From Planctomycetota bacterium (lineage in GTDB: Bacteria > Planctomycetota > Planctomycetia > Pirellulales > Thermoguttaceae), in the NCBI GenBank assembly GCA_021784975.1, contig JAJYGU010000452.1, positions 1 to 36,824 of the forward strand: DNA of 36,824 nucleotides. The letters run 5' to 3'. A program made the translations under genes and the position numbers. The notes under the pieces were generated by a model. That model searched no databases. It was not told the DNA's origin and saw nothing but the letters and a program-made list of their open reading frames with translations. This document shows positions 1,051 to 13,813 of this stretch, piece by piece. How positions within the stretch are numbered: position 1 is the first letter of the stretch; every line of letters begins with the position of its first letter.

Positions 1051-3099
1051 ATGATGCCTCCACCGAGCGGGGCGGGGGGCGGGATCGCTGGCTCCGGTCG
1101 GCTTCATGGGCCCGTGCCGCGGGTGCTCTTTCCCGAGCGGCTCTCCGAGCCGGCGTTTTTCCCAGCGGCCTATCCATGGATGTATCTCTCGCGCCGCATG
1201 GAAGAGAAGCTGATGGAGCTCTTCCAGAAAGGCTATGTGAAGGGGACGGTGACATCCGGCATCGGCAACGAAGCCACCGCGCTGGGCATGACCATGCCCT
1301 TGCGGCCGGGGCAAGATGTCGTATCGCTCCTGCACCGCGACTTCGCCGGCCATCTGGTTCTGGGATCGTCGCCGTATGAGCTGTTCTGCCAATACCTGGC
1401 CAACGCCGATAGCCGGACGCACGCCCGCGAGGGCAACGTCCATCATGGCAACGCCGCCCGGCGGCGGTTTCCGATGCTCAGCCACCTGGGTAAGATGCTG
1501 AGCGTGGTGGTAGGCGGGACCTGGGCGGCCCGGCGCCAGGGCGAAGAGGTATTCGGACTGGCGGCCATCGGCGACGGCGGCACGAGCACCGGCGAGTTCC
1601 ACGAAGCGCTGAACCTGGCCTCGGTGCACGCCGTGCCGGTCGTCTTCTTGATCGAAAACAACCATTACGCCTTCTCGACGCCGACGCAACGCCAATACCG
1701 TTGCCAACGGCTTTCCGATCGGGCGGCGGGGTACGGGATCAGCGGCCGAACCATTGACGGGGCCGACGCCTGGGCGGTCTACGCCGCGGTGTGCGACGCC
1801 CTGGAGGCGATCCGCCGCGAGCCCGCGCCGACGATCATTGAGTGCATGAGCCTGCGGCTGCTCGGGCATGCCGCCTACGACAAGGGGAGCTATGTTCCGG
1901 CGGAAACCTTGGGGCAGTGGCGCGAGCGCGACCCGCTACCGGCCGCGCGGCGGAGGCTGCTGGAGTTGGGCGGCATGTCGGATGCCGCTGTGCGATCGCT
2001 GGAAGAGGAGATCGAAAAGGAGATTCGCGAAGCGCTGGCCAAAGCGTTGGCGGTCGGGCGCCCTGAGCCGAGCGAGCCGGGCGCGGCAGTGTTTGCCCGA
2101 AGGCCGCGGACGACTGTGAAGCCCTTTCACTCGCCGCCGGTGAAAAACGGCGAGGCGGTCGGTCGGGCCTTGGATTACCTGCTGGAGAACGATCCACGGG
2201 CGTTCGTGGCGGGTCTCGACGTGGGCGTCTACGGTTCGGCTTTCAAGACCTGCAAAGGCTTGCTGGAGCGTCACGGGCCGCAGCGCGTGATCGACATGCC
2301 GTTGGCGGAATCGGCGATCATGGGCTTCGCCCTGGGGGCATCGCAGCTTGGCGGGCGGCCGATCGTCGAGTTCCAGTTCGCCGATTTTTCCACCGAAGCG
2401 GTCTCGCAGCTTGGGCTCAACGCGGCCACCTGGCACTTCCGCGCCGACCGGCCGGCGCCGTTGTTGGTGCGCCTGCCCTGCGGCGGCGGGTTGACGGTGG
2501 GTGCCTTTCATTCCGGCGAGTTTGAGGGCCTGTGGTCCCGCTTTCCCGGGCTGAAGCTGCTTTATCCCGCCACCGCCCAAGAGACCTTCGAGGCCCTGGT
2601 AGCGGGATACCATGATCCCAATCCGTGCCTGGTGTTGGAACACAAGCTGCTTTACTGGAGCAAAAGCGGGCCGATTGATTTTGACGGCGACCTGGAAGCC
2701 GTGTGGCGTCCGCGCTGCTACTGCGAAGGCGGCGAAGTGACCGTGGTGGCCTTCGGCGCCATGGTCCACCAGGCGCTGGCCGTGGCTGCTCGGAGCCGTT
2801 GCTCGATTGAGGTCTGGAACCCCTTCGTGCTGCAACCCTTGGAGATCGGACCCATCTTGGAATCGGTGCAAAAGACCGGGCGATTATTGGTGGTGCAGGA
2901 ATGCGGTGCCACCCAGGGTCTGGGCGACCGCGTGATCTCGCTGGTCTGCCGCGACTGTTTTGCGTCGTTGAAGCGTCCGCCGGTATTGGTGGCAGCGCCC
3001 GACGCGCCAGTCCCCTTTGCTGCCGAGTTGGAGTCGGCGCACCGGCCCGACGGCGCGCGGATCGAGGCGGCAGTCGCCGGACTCATGGAGGGCCGATGA
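1051..3099 (+). CDS. Fused E1 alpha-beta thiamine-diphosphate-dependent 2-oxoacid dehydrogenase (branched-chain/pyruvate type)
   Basis: Alpha half with ThDP motif GDGGTSTGEFHEALNLASVHAVPVVFLIENN; beta half with MPLAESAIMGFALGASQLGGRPIVEFQFADF and LLVRLPCGGG...HSGEFEG; start chosen at ATG 1051, exact start uncertain. Confidence 0.9.
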   Translation: MMPPPSGAGGGIAGSGRLHGPVPRVLFPERLSEPAFFPAAYPWMYLSRRMEEKLMELFQKGYVKGTVTSGIGNEATALGMTMPLRPGQDVVSLLHRDFAGHLVLGSSPYELFCQYLANADSRTHAREGNVHHGNAARRRFPMLSHLGKMLSVVVGGTWAARRQGEEVFGLAAIGDGGTSTGEFHEALNLASVHAVPVVFLIENNHYAFSTPTQRQYRCQRLSDRAAGYGISGRTIDGADAWAVYAAVCDALEAIRREPAPTIIECMSLRLLGHAAYDKGSYVPAETLGQWRERDPLPAARRRLLELGGMSDAAVRSLEEEIEKEIREALAKALAVGRPEPSEPGAAVFARRPRTTVKPFHSPPVKNGEAVGRALDYLLENDPRAFVAGLDVGVYGSAFKTCKGLLERHGPQRVIDMPLAESAIMGFALGASQLGGRPIVEFQFADFSTEAVSQLGLNAATWHFRADRPAPLLVRLPCGGGLTVGAFHSGEFEGLWSRFPGLKLLYPATAQETFEALVAGYHDPNPCLVLEHKLLYWSKSGPIDFDGDLEAVWRPRCYCEGGEVTVVAFGAMVHQALAVAARSRCSIEVWNPFVLQPLEIGPILESVQKTGRLLVVQECGATQGLGDRVISLVCRDCFASLKRPPVLVAAPDAPVPFAAELESAHRPDGARIEAAVAGLMEGR

Positions 3100-4415
3100 T
3101 GGACGCCGCCCTGCGCATGCCTTTGTATCTGCCGGCCCAAGGGGCCTCGGAGACCGACGCGACCATCATCGAGTGGCTGGTGGCCGAGGGCGATCACTTT
3201 CGCAAGGGGCAATCCTTGGCCCAGATCGACAGCGCCAAATCGGTCTTCGATTTCGAGGCCCCCTGCGACGGCATGGTGATCCGGCGATTTCATCTGGAAG
3301 GCGACACCCTGGCACTGACCACTCCGATCATGGAGATCGAGGCCTTCGACGCCGCCATGCGCGACTGGATTCCGCCCGCGGCAGCCAACCCGCGAGCGGC
3401 GGCGCGGCCCGAAACCGCCCCGGCGGCCGCCGATCCTGCTCCCGGCCGCGAGCCGGTGGTAATCCGCGGCGTCGGCGGCTATTTGCCGCCGCGGGTGGTC
3501 ACCAACTCCGAATTGGTGGCCGCCTTTCCCGAAATCTCGGAAGAGTACGTCTACCAGGTCACCGGCATTCGCGAGCGTCGCTGGGCCGAGGCCGATGAAA
3601 AGCCCTCCGGCATGGCCTACAAGGCGGCCTTGGAGGCGATCCGCCGCTCGGGCGTCGACAACAAGGACATCGACGCCCTGGTGCTGGCCACCACCACGCC
3701 GGACGTGGCCATGCCCTCGACCGCCGCCATCGTGCAAGACCGTTTGAACCTGCCCAGCATCCCCGCCTTCGACCTGAACGCCGCCTGCTCGGGCTGGCTG
3801 TACGCGGTCTCGGTGGCCCGCGGCCTGATCCTCGGCGGCACCGCCCGAAACGTGCTGACCATCGCGGTCGATATGCAGTCGCGGCTGATCGACCCTTCCG
3901 AGCGTAGTGCCTACCTGATCTTCGGCGACGGCGCCGGAGCGGCGATCATTTCCTCAGGCACGCTGGGGCATCCAATCCGCCACGTGCAATTGGGGGCCGA
4001 CACCCGCGGCCTGCGGATGGCCCGCCGCGAAGAGCCGGGCTACGCGGTGCGCAACGGGCATTGCCGTGTGGACCCCTGGATCCGCATCGACGGCCAGGCG
4101 ATGTTCCGTTTCGCCACCCAAGCTTTCACCAACGTCATCCGCCAGGCGATCGACCAGAGCGGCTGGACCGACGCCGAAACCCGCTGGATCATTCCCCATC
4201 AAGCCAACGGCCGAATCCTCAAGGCGGCCGCCAGGCGGAGCGGCCTGCCTTTCGACCGTTTCTTCCTGAACATCGAGCGGGTAGGCAACACCTCGAGCGC
4301 CAGCATCCCGCTGGCCTTGGTGGAAGCCGAAGAAAAGCTCCGCCCGGGCGACAAGCTGATTCTCTGCTCGGTCGGAGCCGGCTTGACCACCGCCGCCATT
4401 GCGGTCGAGTGGTAG
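3096..4415 (+). CDS. Lipoyl-attachment domain fused to beta-ketoacyl-ACP synthase III (FabH-like)
   Basis: N-terminus EWLVAEGDHFRKGQSLAQIDSAKSVFDFEAPCDGMVIRRFHLEGD is a lipoyl-type domain (K48); Ala/Pro linker; KASIII body with Cys (DLNAACSGW, C231), His (IPHQANGR, H368) and Asn (RVGNTSSAS, N398); start overlaps the upstream stop (ATGATGG). Confidence 0.92.
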   Translation: MMDAALRMPLYLPAQGASETDATIIEWLVAEGDHFRKGQSLAQIDSAKSVFDFEAPCDGMVIRRFHLEGDTLALTTPIMEIEAFDAAMRDWIPPAAANPRAAARPETAPAAADPAPGREPVVIRGVGGYLPPRVVTNSELVAAFPEISEEYVYQVTGIRERRWAEADEKPSGMAYKAALEAIRRSGVDNKDIDALVLATTTPDVAMPSTAAIVQDRLNLPSIPAFDLNAACSGWLYAVSVARGLILGGTARNVLTIAVDMQSRLIDPSERSAYLIFGDGAGAAIISSGTLGHPIRHVQLGADTRGLRMARREEPGYAVRNGHCRVDPWIRIDGQAMFRFATQAFTNVIRQAIDQSGWTDAETRWIIPHQANGRILKAAARRSGLPFDRFFLNIERVGNTSSASIPLALVEAEEKLRPGDKLILCSVGAGLTTAAIAVEW

Positions 4416-4643: not shown

Positions 4644-6308
4644 ATGACCCATAGTGTTGCACATCGGCTCCTCGTGCTGCTCGCGGTGGTAGGGGGCCTT
4701 ACGACGTTGGCAAATGCGGAGCCGGCCAAGCCCGCTAAGCGGGCCCTACCAGCTAAGCCTAAAGCGGTTTCCCAGCCGGCAGCGCCCAAAGCAGCCGATG
4801 CCGCCAAGCCCAAAGCGGCGGCTACGACAGCGGAAGCTAAGGCCGCCGAGGCGAAGAAACCCAAGGCCGCCGAGTCCGTGCAAGCGAAGGCCCCGGTTGG
4901 CACGACGGCGTCAAAACCGTCGGCTAGCGCGGGCACGACGTCGAATAGCTACACGGTCAAGAGGTCGCCGCTGCGGATTACGCTCGAGCTGGACGGCGTT
5001 TTCGAGAGCCGAAAGACGCACGAAGTTTTGGTCAAGCCCGCAGAATGGACGATGCTGACGGTTTTGGAGGCGGTGCCACACGGCGCCCGGGTAAGGCAGG
5101 GCGATGTATTGCTCAAGCTCGATACCCAGAAGCTCGATCAGACAATCCGCGATCTCGAAACCGAAGTGAAGCTCAACGAAACGGCCCGGCGGTTGGCGGC
5201 CGACCAGTTGCGGGTCCTGGAAAAGACGGTGCCGATGGATCTGGCGGACAGCCAGCGGGCGGCGCGGATTGCCGAGGAAGATCGGGCCGACTATTTTGCG
5301 GTCGATCGCCCCTTTCTGTTGAAGGCCAACACGCACCGGCTGAAGGACTCCAAGGACTCGGTTGACGATCGGGCCGAAGAGCTTCGGCAGTTGGAGAAGA
5401 TGTACAAGGCCGACGATATCACCGAGGAAACCGAGAAGATTGTCTTGAAACGGGCCCGAAACACCTTGGACCGGGTGAAGTTCTGGGACTTGGAAAGCAC
5501 CCAACGCCGCTACGACGAAGCCTTGAAGTACCTAATCCCACGGTTGGATACCCAGATGAAAGAATATGCCGATCGCAAGGCGATTGACTGGCAAAAAGAC
5601 AAGGTCCAATTGCCGCTGGTGCTGGAAAAGCAGCGGCTCGATCTGGAGAAGCTGAAGACGCTCCAGGCTCGCTCGGCGGAACGGCTTCAAAAGCTCTTGG
5701 CCGATCGAAAGTTGATGGAGGTGAAATCGCCTATCGACGGCGTGGTGTACTACGGCAAGGCGATTCGCGGCAAGTTCGGCGATTCCAACAGCCTGGCGGA
5801 AATGCTCCGTCGCCACAGCAACATCCAGCCCAATCAAGTGGTGATGACCATTGTACAGCCCGACGACCTCTTCATTCGAGCCACCGTCCCGGAGGAACAA
5901 CTGCACAACGTCCGTGCGGGCATCAAGGGCCTGGCCACGCCCACGGGTTACCCCGACACGCATCTGCCTGTCCGGGCAGATCGCATCGGCCGATTCCCGA
6001 TCGCCTCCGAGAGCTATGATGCACGGTTCAAGCTGACCGACGATGAGCCGGACGCCTCGCTGGTGCCGGGCATGACCTGCAAGGTTAGGCTGACCGCCTA
6101 CTTCAAGAAGGACGCTCTGTGTGTGCCGCCCAAGGCGCTGGTGCCCGACGAGTTGCACGATCAGCAGTATTGCGTCTGGGTGGTCAAGAGCGACGGCACG
6201 AAGGAGAAAACTCCGGTCGTGGCCGGCAGGCGGACCGACAAGAAGGTCGAGATCCTCGAAGGGCTCAACCTCAACGATCGGGTCCTGTTGGAACCTCCGC
6301 AGGAATAA
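4644..6308 (+). CDS. HlyD/RND-type periplasmic adaptor (membrane fusion protein) with Lys/Ala/Pro-rich N-terminal segment
   Basis: Signal peptide MTHSVAHRLLVLLAVVGGLTTLANA; VLEAVPHGARVRQGDVLLKLDTQKLDQTIRDLETEV plus long coiled coil and KSPIDGVVYYGKAIRGKF, typical adaptor hairpin architecture. Confidence 0.8.
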   Translation: MTHSVAHRLLVLLAVVGGLTTLANAEPAKPAKRALPAKPKAVSQPAAPKAADAAKPKAAATTAEAKAAEAKKPKAAESVQAKAPVGTTASKPSASAGTTSNSYTVKRSPLRITLELDGVFESRKTHEVLVKPAEWTMLTVLEAVPHGARVRQGDVLLKLDTQKLDQTIRDLETEVKLNETARRLAADQLRVLEKTVPMDLADSQRAARIAEEDRADYFAVDRPFLLKANTHRLKDSKDSVDDRAEELRQLEKMYKADDITEETEKIVLKRARNTLDRVKFWDLESTQRRYDEALKYLIPRLDTQMKEYADRKAIDWQKDKVQLPLVLEKQRLDLEKLKTLQARSAERLQKLLADRKLMEVKSPIDGVVYYGKAIRGKFGDSNSLAEMLRRHSNIQPNQVVMTIVQPDDLFIRATVPEEQLHNVRAGIKGLATPTGYPDTHLPVRADRIGRFPIASESYDARFKLTDDEPDASLVPGMTCKVRLTAYFKKDALCVPPKALVPDELHDQQYCVWVVKSDGTKEKTPVVAGRRTDKKVEILEGLNLNDRVLLEPPQE

Positions 6309-6316
6309 GGCAAAGC

Positions 6317-7522
6317 ATGCATCGACGGTGCCTGTCCCCTTTTGTGGTGCTTGCACTGGCCGTCTGTGGTCTACCAGCTTGGGCCGGCGGCGCAGTACCA
6401 GTCTCGCGCACTTCGCTGGCCGAGACGGGTCCGAAACCGAAGCCGATCCGGCCACCTTCGCAGCAAATGATCGACGCTTCGATCCGCCGCGGCGTCGCAT
6501 TCTTGCTGAAGCGACAGAACAAGGACGGCTCGTGGGGCTCGGCAAACATCACGCGTCCTGACGAGGTTTATGCCCCCGTGCCCGGCGCGCACCAAGCCTT
6601 TAAGGCGGCAGTGACGGCACTGTGTGTTTCGGCGCTAATTGAGGCCGGTGGTCCCCGGTCGGAAGTCGTAGATGCCGTCGATCGCGGCGAGACTTGGCTG
6701 TTTGGACACCTTGCGAAAGTGCGACGGGCCACGCCCGACACCCTGTACAACATCTGGACGCACGCCTATGCGATCCAGGCGTTGGTGCGGATGCTGGCCC
6801 GCCGACCCAAAGACCTCCAGCGCGCCCGAAAAATCCACGCCCTGATCGAGCAGCAGCTCGGCATGCTCGAACGCTACGAGGTGGTCGATGGCGGCTGGGC
6901 GTACTACGATTTCGAGGCCCAAACCCAGAAACCGAGCGGCTCGACGATGAGTTTCCTCACCGCGGCGGTGCTGGTCGCCCTGCATGAAGCCAAGAACGTA
7001 GGGGTGAAGATTCCCCGGCGGCTGGTGGATCGCGCCAAGGCGTCGCTCCTGCGTCAGCGCGAACCGGATTTCTCCTACCTCTACGGCGAGTACACCAAGT
7101 ACTGGGGTCTGCCGGGCATCAATCGGCCCGCCGGCAGTTTGGGTCGCTCGCAGGCCTGCAACCTGGCCATGCGCCTCTGGGGCGACCAGCGGGTGACCGA
7201 CGCCGTCTTGAAGACCTGGCTCGACCGCCTCTTCGCCCGCAACCTCTGGCTCGATCTGGGCCGCAAACGCCCGGTGCCGCACTCGTCGTGGTGCCAGGTG
7301 GCGGGCTACTTCTTTTACTACGGGCACTACTATGCCGCCCTGTGTATCGACCAACTCCCCAGGGACCAGCGCGGGCACTACGAAGGATACCTGGCCCACA
7401 TCCTCACCCACCTGCAAGAGCCGGACGGCTCGTGGTGGGATTTCCCGCTCTACGACTACCACACCCAGTACGGCACGGCCTTCGCGCTGATGTCGCTGCA
7501 CCGCTGCCAAGACAGCCGCTAG
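6317..7522 (+). CDS. Secreted prenyltransferase/squalene-hopene-cyclase-repeat protein
   Basis: Signal peptide MHRRCLSPFVVLALAVCGLPAWAGG; repeats such as GVAFLLKRQNKDGSWG, VVDGGWAYYDF and LQEPDGSWWDFPLYDYHTQYGTAFALMSL. Confidence 0.75.
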   Translation: MHRRCLSPFVVLALAVCGLPAWAGGAVPVSRTSLAETGPKPKPIRPPSQQMIDASIRRGVAFLLKRQNKDGSWGSANITRPDEVYAPVPGAHQAFKAAVTALCVSALIEAGGPRSEVVDAVDRGETWLFGHLAKVRRATPDTLYNIWTHAYAIQALVRMLARRPKDLQRARKIHALIEQQLGMLERYEVVDGGWAYYDFEAQTQKPSGSTMSFLTAAVLVALHEAKNVGVKIPRRLVDRAKASLLRQREPDFSYLYGEYTKYWGLPGINRPAGSLGRSQACNLAMRLWGDQRVTDAVLKTWLDRLFARNLWLDLGRKRPVPHSSWCQVAGYFFYYGHYYAALCIDQLPRDQRGHYEGYLAHILTHLQEPDGSWWDFPLYDYHTQYGTAFALMSLHRCQDSR

Positions 7523-9731: not shown

Positions 9732-10140
9732 GGCATTTTCGCCCCTATTTTCATCAACAAGTTTTCCACGCAGGTCGGGCGGCGGCTGCCCCCCCCTCGA
9801 AAAGGTGGATGGCATGTTCTCGTCCGGAGATTTTCGGGCCTTTTCCGCCTCCGCGAGATTATTTGGGAAGACGTCTGGAGAAGCCGTCGCCGGCCGTGGT
9901 ACAATACCACCGGTCACCCACGTCAAGGTTCGTAGGCTGGGGCCGAGCAGCGACTTCTCCACAGCCGAGGGAAGCCGAGGCGCGACCGCCGGCCTACGAG
10001 CTTTTTGGGATGGATGGCTCCGCCCTGAGAGACTTGGCGCAGTGCGTCCGCGCGCCCCGCCTAAGTGCGAACTGCGGGGCGTCGCCTCGCCAAACCCTGA
10101 TCTCAAATCCCGGCCCCCGACCTCTGGCCCCTCTCCAGCC

Positions 10141-11217
10141 ATGCTCCTCTTGGCCCAAGACACTACGCAAGACACGATCCAGGTACTCATCATCGTCGGC
10201 ATCATCCTGGCGATCTTTCTGGGGCTGATCGTGTTGGCGGTGTTTACCCGCTATTTTCGCCTCTGGATCCAGTCGGTCACCACCGGGGCCGGCATCGGCA
10301 TCTTCGATCTGCTGGGGATGACCTTTCGCAAGGTCAATCCGGCGGTGATCGTCCGCAGCAAGATCATGGCCGTCCAGGCGGGCATCGGTGAGGAACACGG
10401 AGTTACCTCACGGGCCCTGGAAGCGCATTATCTGGCCGGCGGCAACGTGCCGCTGGTGATCCGCGCCCTGGTGGCCGCCAACAAGGCCAAGCTCGAAGAA
10501 CTCACCTTCAAGCTGGCCACCGCCATCGACCTGGCCGGCCGCAACGTGCTGGAGGCCGTGCAGACCAGCGTTAATCCCAAGGTGATCGACTGCCCTGGTC
10601 GCAGCGGCGCCAAGCAATCGCTCGACGGCGTGGCCCAGAACGGCATCCAATTGAAGGTGAAGGCGCGGGTCACGGTGCGGGCGAACCTGCGGCAATTGAT
10701 CGGCGGGGCCACCGAAGAGACGATTATCGCCCGGGTGGGCGAAGGGATCGTTAGCGCCATCGGCTCGGCCGCCTCGCATCTGATCGTGCTGGAGAATCCC
10801 GACCGCATCTCGAAGACTGTGCTCGCCCGGCGGCTGGACGCCCAAACCGCCTTCGAGATCGTCTCGATCGACATTGCCGACGTCGACGTAGGCGAGAACA
10901 TCGGCGCCCGCCTGCAGGCCGACCAGGCCGAGGCCGACACCCGCGTGGCCCGCGCCAACGCCGAGGGCCGACGGGCCATGGCCGTGGCCGAAGAGCAGGA
11001 AATGATCGCCCGCATCGAAGAAAACCGGGCGAAAGTGGTGGAGGCCGAGGCCGAGGTGCCCAAGGCCATCGCCAACGCCTTCCAGAACGGCAAGCTCGGG
11101 CTGTTGGACTACTACAAGCTCCGCAACATCCAGGCCGACACCGACATGCGGTCTTCGATCGCCAAGATGAGCCCGACCAACCGTAAGGCAGGCGTCCCGA
11201 CGGGAGCGGCCACATGA
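10141..11217 (+). CDS. floA: Flotillin-like protein FloA
   Basis: N-terminal membrane segment; full-length match by recognition ([97 protein letters not shown]). Confidence 0.93.
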
Positions 11218-12065: not shown

Positions 12066-12686
12066 TCACTTCGTTTTCTGACTGTTGGGCTTGACCCCGC
12101 TGGCGGCTGGCGAGTTCTTGTACATCATCCGCACGCCGTCGTCGGAAATGAGTTTGCGGGTCTTCTTGTCCCACTTCCGCGTCCGTACCGCCATGTGATG
12201 GTTTTCGCCGTGACATTCGGTGCAAACCAGATGTTCGTCGGCCGGCTGACTGGCCGCGAAGAGGCCTTGGTGGTGCTGGTTCTTGGCGATCTTCTCTTTC
12301 GGATGGCACGTCATGCAGAAGGCGTCCACGTCGCTGTGGGCGAACATCACGTCCGGCGGCGTCAGTCCGTCCTCGTCGCCGCTGTGTTTTTCCGATTCGC
12401 CGTGGCACTTGGCACAACCAACGCCCGCGATCTGGTGGCTGCGGGTCAACTTCTCGGTCTCATAGTTCAGGTGACATACGAGACAGTAGGAATTATCGGC
12501 CGGCTCGACTTTCGGCCTGGCAGCAGCTTTGGCCGAATCCTTTTTTGTGTCGGCGGCTTTTGCGGCCGGCTTTGCAGTCGCAGGATCGCCCGCGGAACTG
12601 GGCCCGGTCCAGACGGCAAGTATGGCGATCATCGCTGCGCCAGATGTCAGCGCCACCGCAAGCGGAAGGAATCGCCGGCCCCTCAT
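12066..12686 (-). CDS. Multiheme c-type cytochrome (four CxxCH motifs), secreted
   Basis: CLVCH, CAKCH, CMTCH, CTECH; N-terminal hydrophobic signal MRGRRFLPLAVALTSGAAMIAILAVWTG; start overlaps the upstream stop (TGATG). Confidence 0.88.
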   Translation of the reverse strand: MRGRRFLPLAVALTSGAAMIAILAVWTGPSSAGDPATAKPAAKAADTKKDSAKAAARPKVEPADNSYCLVCHLNYETEKLTRSHQIAGVGCAKCHGESEKHSGDEDGLTPPDVMFAHSDVDAFCMTCHPKEKIAKNQHHQGLFAASQPADEHLVCTECHGENHHMAVRTRKWDKKTRKLISDDGVRMMYKNSPAASGVKPNSQKTK

Positions 12687-13813
12687 CAAACGTACTCCCA
12701 CTCCCGCAGCCAATGGTAATCGGGGGGCAGGTTGGCCCACATCCGATCGCCCCACTCCTGCAACTGGGCCTTCTCGCCGGCATCCAATTGGCGGCGTTCG
12801 CGGATCGCTTGCACCACGTTATCGACCTGGCTGATGCTGATCAGACCGGGAATGGGGGCAGTCACGGCCGGGTTGCAGAGGATGTTGCGAATCGCCACCC
12901 GCGCGCGGCGGTTGTCTTCATCGCGATGCGGGCCGTTGGGCGAGCCGTCGCCCAGGAAGAGCGTATTGCTGGCGAACGGCTTGATCCCCAACATGCCTAC
13001 ATCGTGTTTCTTGATGGCGTCAAAGAGGCTATCGACGGGCAGGACTTTCGACGTGGCCGTGTAGGGCGTGCAGAGCATCTGGATCGTGTCGGGATATTCT
13101 TGGATGAGCTTCTTCGCCCACTTGCGATCGTGCGTCGACATGCCGGTGAAACGGCAGAGCCCCTTCTTCCTGGCGGCATCGAGGGCGCCGATCATGGCGT
13201 CCACGTCGGCCTGGCTGTGCGAACCGCCGCGCTCCAGGGCCATCAGCCGCCAGATATCGGCGTATTCCAGCTTGCAGCGTTTCAAGCCTGCCTCGAAGAG
13301 TTCGAGCAGTTTCTGGGTGCTGCGGTTCTCGGGCACTCGCAGTTCGCTGGCCGGATGCGAGTAGGCCAGGAACAACCGGTCGCGGCGGCCGGCCAGCACC
13401 CGGCAATAGACTTCCGGCTCGGCGTCGCCGGCGAAGTCGATCAGATTGATGCCGACGTCGATACAGTGATGGAGCACGTCGCGACGGTTCTTCAGGAAGG
13501 GCCCCAAGTCGGCCTTCTGGTCGGGGCCGTTGTACGGATTGATTTCGGCCTTGGCGCCGATGACCTTGTCGATCCGCTTCCAATGGCCGCCCATGCAGAC
13601 GGCGGAGACCCACAACCCGGTCTTGCCGAGCCGGCGATATTCCATGTTCGGATGGTAGCTGCGGGTGTTCTTGACTTCCGCCGGCACGTCGACGGCGCCT
13701 GCCGCTACGATGCCCGCTTGCCCGTGGAGCAGGCCGCCGGCCGCGGCCGCCCCGGCCGCCATCGCGACCGTATCACGCACGAACTCTCGTCGATTCAAGC
13801 GATCAGAATGCAT
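12686..13813 (-). CDS. Aldo/keto-reductase-like protein with TAT signal
   Basis: TAT motif NRREFVRDTVAMAAGAAAAGG; EYRRLGKTGLWVSAVCMGG; LAGRRDRLFLAYS; NILCNPAVTAPIPGLISISQVDNVVQAI. Confidence 0.88.
   Translation of the reverse strand: MHSDRLNRREFVRDTVAMAAGAAAAGGLLHGQAGIVAAGAVDVPAEVKNTRSYHPNMEYRRLGKTGLWVSAVCMGGHWKRIDKVIGAKAEINPYNGPDQKADLGPFLKNRRDVLHHCIDVGINLIDFAGDAEPEVYCRVLAGRRDRLFLAYSHPASELRVPENRSTQKLLELFEAGLKRCKLEYADIWRLMALERGGSHSQADVDAMIGALDAARKKGLCRFTGMSTHDRKWAKKLIQEYPDTIQMLCTPYTATSKVLPVDSLFDAIKKHDVGMLGIKPFASNTLFLGDGSPNGPHRDEDNRRARVAIRNILCNPAVTAPIPGLISISQVDNVVQAIRERRQLDAGEKAQLQEWGDRMWANLPPDYHWLREWEYV

Follow-up and report, generated by a model that had tools for sequence, protein, structure and literature searches.

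The window, that is, the whole stretch of DNA analysed here, is a contig of 36,824 nucleotides (JAJYGU010000452.1) from a Planctomycetota bacterium of the family Thermoguttaceae. Two overlapping genes on its forward strand were found to encode the parts of an unusual 2-oxoacid dehydrogenase system. The first (1051–3099, +) encodes a fused E1 alpha-beta subunit of 682 aa, in which E1_dh (197 bits, residues 44–340), Transket_pyr (101 bits, residues 366–535) and Transketolase_C (84 bits, residues 558–671) all score above the Pfam cut-offs. Its exact start is uncertain, since homology to relatives sets in only at about residues 11–27. The thiamine diphosphate (ThDP) motif GDG-X26-NN was matched at residue 174 (1570–1662, +) and is also present in the E1 of Opitutae described below. 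In the beta half, the sequence PLAES carries a probable catalytic residue, Glu420 (2308–2310, +), which we presume to have this role from general knowledge of E1 beta subunits.

The second gene (3096–4415, +) encodes a protein of 438 or 439 aa. The E1 stop codon TGA (3097–3099) overlaps its ATG at 3096 as ATGA, and an alternative ATG lies at 3099, from which residues are numbered here. Three Pfam families were matched in its product: Biotin_lipoyl (40 bits), ACP_syn_III (76 bits) and ACP_syn_III_C (99 bits). A lipoyl domain (3129–3338, +; residues 11–80) with a predicted lipoyl-lysine, K47, in the motif DSAKS (3237–3239, +) is followed by an Ala/Pro-rich linker (3369–3452, +) and a FabH-like beta-ketoacyl-ACP synthase III (KASIII) domain (3456–4412, +; approximately residues 120–438). 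The KASIII domain contains the active-site Cys230 (3786–3788, +), His367 (4197–4199, +) and Asn397 (4287–4289, +), equivalent to C112, H244 and N274 of the E. coli enzyme; these three and K47 are invariant in the window's family. A first-pass annotation of the same DNA had described an E1 alpha-beta gene overlapping a lipoyl-KASIII gene, and the Pfam search and the sequence bear this out; the residues that it listed as K48 of the lipoyl domain and C231, H368 and N398 of the complete KASIII are the same four, counted from 3096.

The fusion protein scored 316 bits against the NCBIfam model of beta-ketoacyl-ACP synthase 3 (cut-off 249) and was above the cut-off of the broader PRK09352 model, and it narrowly missed the curated fabH model TIGR00747 (287.0 versus 292.1 bits). 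Its AlphaFold2 model (mean pLDDT 81) consists of a beta-strand lipoyl-type domain and a KASIII fold, with best TM scores of about 0.88–0.92 to FabH structures by target length. The linker lies where the first-pass annotation had placed it and is modelled with very low confidence, the pLDDT falling below 50 at residues 94–115, which are probably disordered. A biotin carrier was rejected as the identity of the N-terminal domain, as the lysine lies in AKS or DKS and not in MKM, and the best scores of the lipoyl family profile were to E2 lipoyl domains of solved structures.

No Pfam match to the E2 catalytic domain (2-oxoacid_dh, PF00198) or to E3_binding was found in the window's fusion protein, confirming that an E2 catalytic domain is absent beside the gene pair. 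Like E2 dihydrolipoamide acyltransferases, the fusion has an N-terminal lipoyl domain of the E2 type, a linker rich in Ala and Pro and a partner E1, but it has a KASIII where the PF00198 domain would stand. With FabH it shares the full KASIII fold, the Cys-His-Asn triad and the ACP-side Arg249, but differs in its lipoyl fusion, in the loss of W32 and R36 of the CoA site and in forming a supported clade of its own. Judged from its sequence, it is neither a complete E2, as PF00198 is absent, nor a typical CoA-using FabH, as W32 and R36 are lost.

The fusion, which the first-pass annotation had allowed might be missing from related genomes, was found in 20 of the 36 other genomes of the window's family. 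Full-length identity to the window's protein is 57–72% in 19 other genera, and the twentieth copy (L026) has diverged; K47, C230, H367 and N397 are unchanged across the 18 aligned sequences. The gene-neighbourhood survey proposed earlier for the co-occurrence of the two genes gave a uniform answer, with E1 immediately upstream of the fusion in 20/20 relatives. E1 was present in 23 family genomes including the window's own, 21 of which carry the fusion, and no fusion without E1 was found among the family genomes. Two genomes have E1 alone, for which their assemblies account, E1 lying at or near a contig end in both: in G010 the contig stops 183 bases beyond E1, and in G003 the minus-strand E1 begins at base 3 of its contig. 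Among 393 genomes drawn from across the phylum, the fusion was found in the window's family only, at a cut-off (E<1e-75) that weak relatives would not pass; viral contigs gave no relative.

Homologues were also found in Verrucomicrobiota, so that the matches listed in the species-genome scan cover at least two phyla, which rules out an assembly artefact or chance fusion. Among these matches, a 529-aa protein of an Opitutaceae metagenome-assembled genome (MAG), L038, combines a lipoyl domain, an E3_binding domain (46 bits) and a KASIII, again with no match to PF00198, and in an uncultured Opitutae MAG, L035, the lipoyl-E3-binding protein and the KASIII are encoded by adjacent genes. The E3-binding domain is a further E2-like feature of the Opitutae homologues, which the window's fusion does not have. 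A draw of the class Opitutae yielded this KASIII in 11/189 genomes; counting L035, four of them have the lipoyl-E3-binding and KASIII parts as adjacent separate genes and the others as a single gene. All Opitutae homologues have the lipoyl-lysine motif ESDKS. An orthologous fused E1, with 55–59% identity to that of the L038 genome, was present in 11/11 of these genomes and in 17 of the class in total. The remaining six genomes, of Opitutae type, have the fused E1 and a stand-alone lipoyl-E3-binding protein (L263–L268) that lacks any catalytic domain, and neither this KASIII nor an attached E2 catalytic domain was found in them. The co-occurrence of E1 and fusion gave Fisher p values of 2e-8 and 6e-14, calculated with kinship ignored. 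In more distant relatives of the class, E1 alpha and E1 beta are separate genes, followed in L221 by a 400-aa E2-like gene, as read from the sequence; this third gene is an ordinary E2-like one, with no KASIII. A similar E2-like gene was read near the separate E1 genes of L223. The genome of L038 also contains a second, diverged lipoyl-E3-binding-KASIII copy (L169, 9404–10981) with E/D/L/P at CoA-site positions.

In a tree of 134 KASIIIs built by a quick method, the fused KASIIIs from the two phyla group in a single clade (SH-aLRT 100), within which a branch separates the set of one phylum from that of the other. The E1s of both phyla likewise group together (100/99), and the nearest outside group is the separate alpha/beta type of other Verrucomicrobiota represented by L221. 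Inside either phylum, the pairwise identities of KASIII correlate with those of E1 (r 0.84 and 0.76), as shared species history alone could also bring about. A single origin of the pair is probable from these trees, and one origin followed by transfer or loss would be the simplest reading. Together with the domain content, the E3-binding domain of the Opitutae homologues and the two-phylum co-occurrence, these congruent trees uphold the earlier proposal that KASIII stands in place of the E2 acyltransferase.

W32, R36 and R151 are CoA-site residues of E. coli KASIII (PMC8036411); a second paper counts Trp32 and Arg36 among the key contacts to CoA and gives Arg36 and Arg248 (H. influenzae numbering) as likely contacts to ACP (PMC9040583), so that R36 may contact ACP as well. 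Among ordinary FabHs from our scans, W32 was found in 97/97 and W32 together with R36 in 92/97, whereas in the fused KASIIIs each was found in 0/34. The window's protein has Tyr, Val and Arg at the W32, R36 and R151 sites. Copies of its family have Y/V at the first two and keep R151 in 14/21; in Opitutae the first site is E, D or A, the second L or V and the third H or P, mostly in the combination Glu/Leu/His. Of 53 positions conserved at 90% or more in ordinary FabHs, positions 28, 32, 36, 115, 173 and 183 were lost in both fused groups, while the catalytic triad and the ACP-side R249 are kept in all fused KASIIIs. A KASIII no longer primed from CoA would look like this, most clearly in Opitutae. 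The loss of CoA-site residues makes it more likely that the acyl group would be handed over directly, free of CoA. The first-pass annotation had already proposed such a handover, but the window's protein itself, with Tyr at the W32 site and Arg151 kept, could still bind CoA. Moreover, the KASIII of A. baumannii takes acyl-CoA despite having Phe and Ala at the Trp32 and Arg36 sites (PMC8036411), and divergent KASIII paralogues (L002, L247) have lost the same CoA-site residues, both of which argue against the handover. The window genome's second KASIII (L213, 4439–5590) diverges at the CoA site, with W/L/K at positions 28/32/36, and similar weak matches occur in many relatives.

FabH enzymes have a weak side activity as acyl-CoA:ACP transacylases. 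On this general knowledge, and with ACP-side Arg249 kept, the fused KASIII might simply be a stand-in E2 that passes the acyl group from lipoamide to ACP or CoA with no condensation. We hold this to be decidedly improbable, because the His and Asn required for decarboxylative condensation are invariant and the residues of the CoA site are lost.

The window's assembly also encodes an ordinary E2, whose catalytic domain scores 289 bits, and another fused E1, so the gene pair comes on top of a normal dehydrogenase complex. The lipoyl domain could then be a tether that holds KASIII to E1 or to the ordinary complex, where a housekeeping E2 supplies acyl-CoA nearby, and the window's protein might still bind CoA through the Tyr at the W32 site and Arg151 (PMC8036411). 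A pure tether would not need K47, yet this lysine is invariant, and in most Opitutae copies Glu, Leu and His replace the three CoA residues; tethering therefore seems distinctly unlikely. LipA scored above the cut-off in 33/40 genomes searched and was not found above it in the window's own assembly, which is 89% complete.

An ordinary FabH orthologue coexists with the fusion in at least 13/21 fusion genomes, so the idea that the fusion serves as the sole KASIII of its genomes was rejected as a rule; the other eight, the window's included, have a distant second KASIII or none, and several of these are incomplete. Such coexistence, and the patchy presence of the pair in 21 to 23 of 37 family genomes, would fit a pair that uses an unusual 2-oxoacid to prime some special acyl chain or a specialised metabolite and not bulk fatty acids, a reading compatible with lipoamide-to-KASIII handover and different in product. 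Neighbouring genes in Opitutae hint at lipid A acyl chains: by our reading of the genes, an Opitutae E1 precedes kdsC, lptC/A and lptB-like genes (L161, 2801–7336) and an Opitutae KASIII fusion comes after pyrG and kdsA-like genes (L162, 7675–11925), making a link to lipid A synthesis possible. We regard a specialised product as unlikely on balance, as by our reading no PKS/NRPS or tailoring genes recur in 16 operon neighbourhoods. Apart from an HlyD-like adaptor and a hopene-cyclase-like gene, which a few close relatives share, no recurrent biosynthetic neighbourhood was found. In the window, these two lie at 4644–7522, the HlyD-like adaptor gene first and the hopene-cyclase-C-like gene after it; as read from the sequence, G002 (L121) has a pair of this kind after its fusion, and in G035 (L124) a comparable adaptor gene is located nearby.

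The E1 alpha half scores higher against branched-chain-type alpha subunits than against pyruvate dehydrogenase alpha, and the beta half is not decisive; the 2-oxoacid substrate is probably branched-chain. In cultured Opitutaceae, iso and anteiso acids are among the major fatty acids, with iso-C15:0 accounting for 33–49% in two Lacunisphaera species and anteiso-C15:0, iso-C14:0 and iso-C13:0 3-OH among the others (PMC5303756, PMC12193912). This composition fits a branched-chain starter, though it is not tied to the gene pair.

We think it fairly probable that the two genes encode a dehydrogenase-synthase complex in which acyl groups are handed from lipoamide to KASIII and condensed with malonyl-ACP. 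In this mechanism, E1 with ThDP would decarboxylate a 2-oxoacid that is probably branched-chain, and the lipoyl arm of K47 would be reductively acylated by it; flexibility of the linker would allow the loaded arm to swing into the active site of KASIII and the acyl group to pass to Cys230. Condensation of the acyl-Cys230 with malonyl-ACP would then give 3-ketoacyl-ACP, the start of a fatty acid, and a housekeeping E3 would re-oxidise the lipoyl arm with NAD+. The net reaction would be 2-oxoacid + malonyl-ACP + NAD+ → 3-ketoacyl-ACP + 2 CO2 + NADH. We infer the lipoylation of K47, the direct acyl transfer, the condensation, the substrate and the product, taking the chemical steps from knowledge of the enzyme families.

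This mechanism is favoured by the absent E2 catalytic domain, the operon in 20/20 relatives, the co-occurrence of E1 and fusion and their joint clades, and by the loss of W32/R36 with the triad and R249 kept, the branched-type E1 alpha and the iso/anteiso acids of Opitutaceae. Besides the counter-evidence from the CoA site, the six Opitutae-type genomes that have E1 and the lipoyl-E3-binding protein without this KASIII argue against it, as do the LipA missing from the window's assembly and the ordinary FabH of at least 13/21 fusion genomes. A further point against it is that the window's fusion has no E3-binding domain by which E3 would be recruited. Taken as a whole, the interpretation first drawn from this sequence is partly supported.

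Fatty-acid initiation classically uses an acyl-CoA primer, and 2-oxoacid dehydrogenase complexes pass their acyl groups to CoA. In the Bacillus-type route, a branched-chain 2-oxoacid dehydrogenase with a true E2 and a FabH prime iso/anteiso acids via free acyl-CoA. The presumed overall chemistry here is alike, leading from a 2-oxoacid to a branched 3-ketoacyl-ACP, but both steps appear to be joined in a single polypeptide, whose working principle resembles that of an E2 with a condensing enzyme as its acceptor. A literature search on lipoyl/KASIII/FabH, with thin coverage of subscription journals, returned no description of the fusion; as far as the literature covered shows, the replacement of the E2 acyltransferase by a ketosynthase is a real, conserved and undescribed architecture. 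We lean slightly towards a distinct class of complex, of single origin and present in at least two phyla, in which lipoamide-bound acyl groups would go straight to a ketosynthase with no free acyl-CoA. Such a fusion would reveal another acceptor for lipoyl-bound acyl groups, would offer a CoA-sparing start of branched chains, and could serve as a ready template for producing branched 3-ketoacyl-ACP out of 2-oxoacids derived from amino acids.

Elsewhere in the window, the contig starts with a C-terminal fragment of a tyrosine recombinase (4–414; Pfam Phage_integrase, below cut-off), which is adjoined by a tRNA-Phe gene on the minus strand (454–527); the two may be the remnant of an integrated element. 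Downstream of the gene pair, a Flotillin-like FloA gene (484 bits) was found at 10126–11217, and a small multihaem cytochrome-like protein is encoded on the minus strand at 12066–12755.
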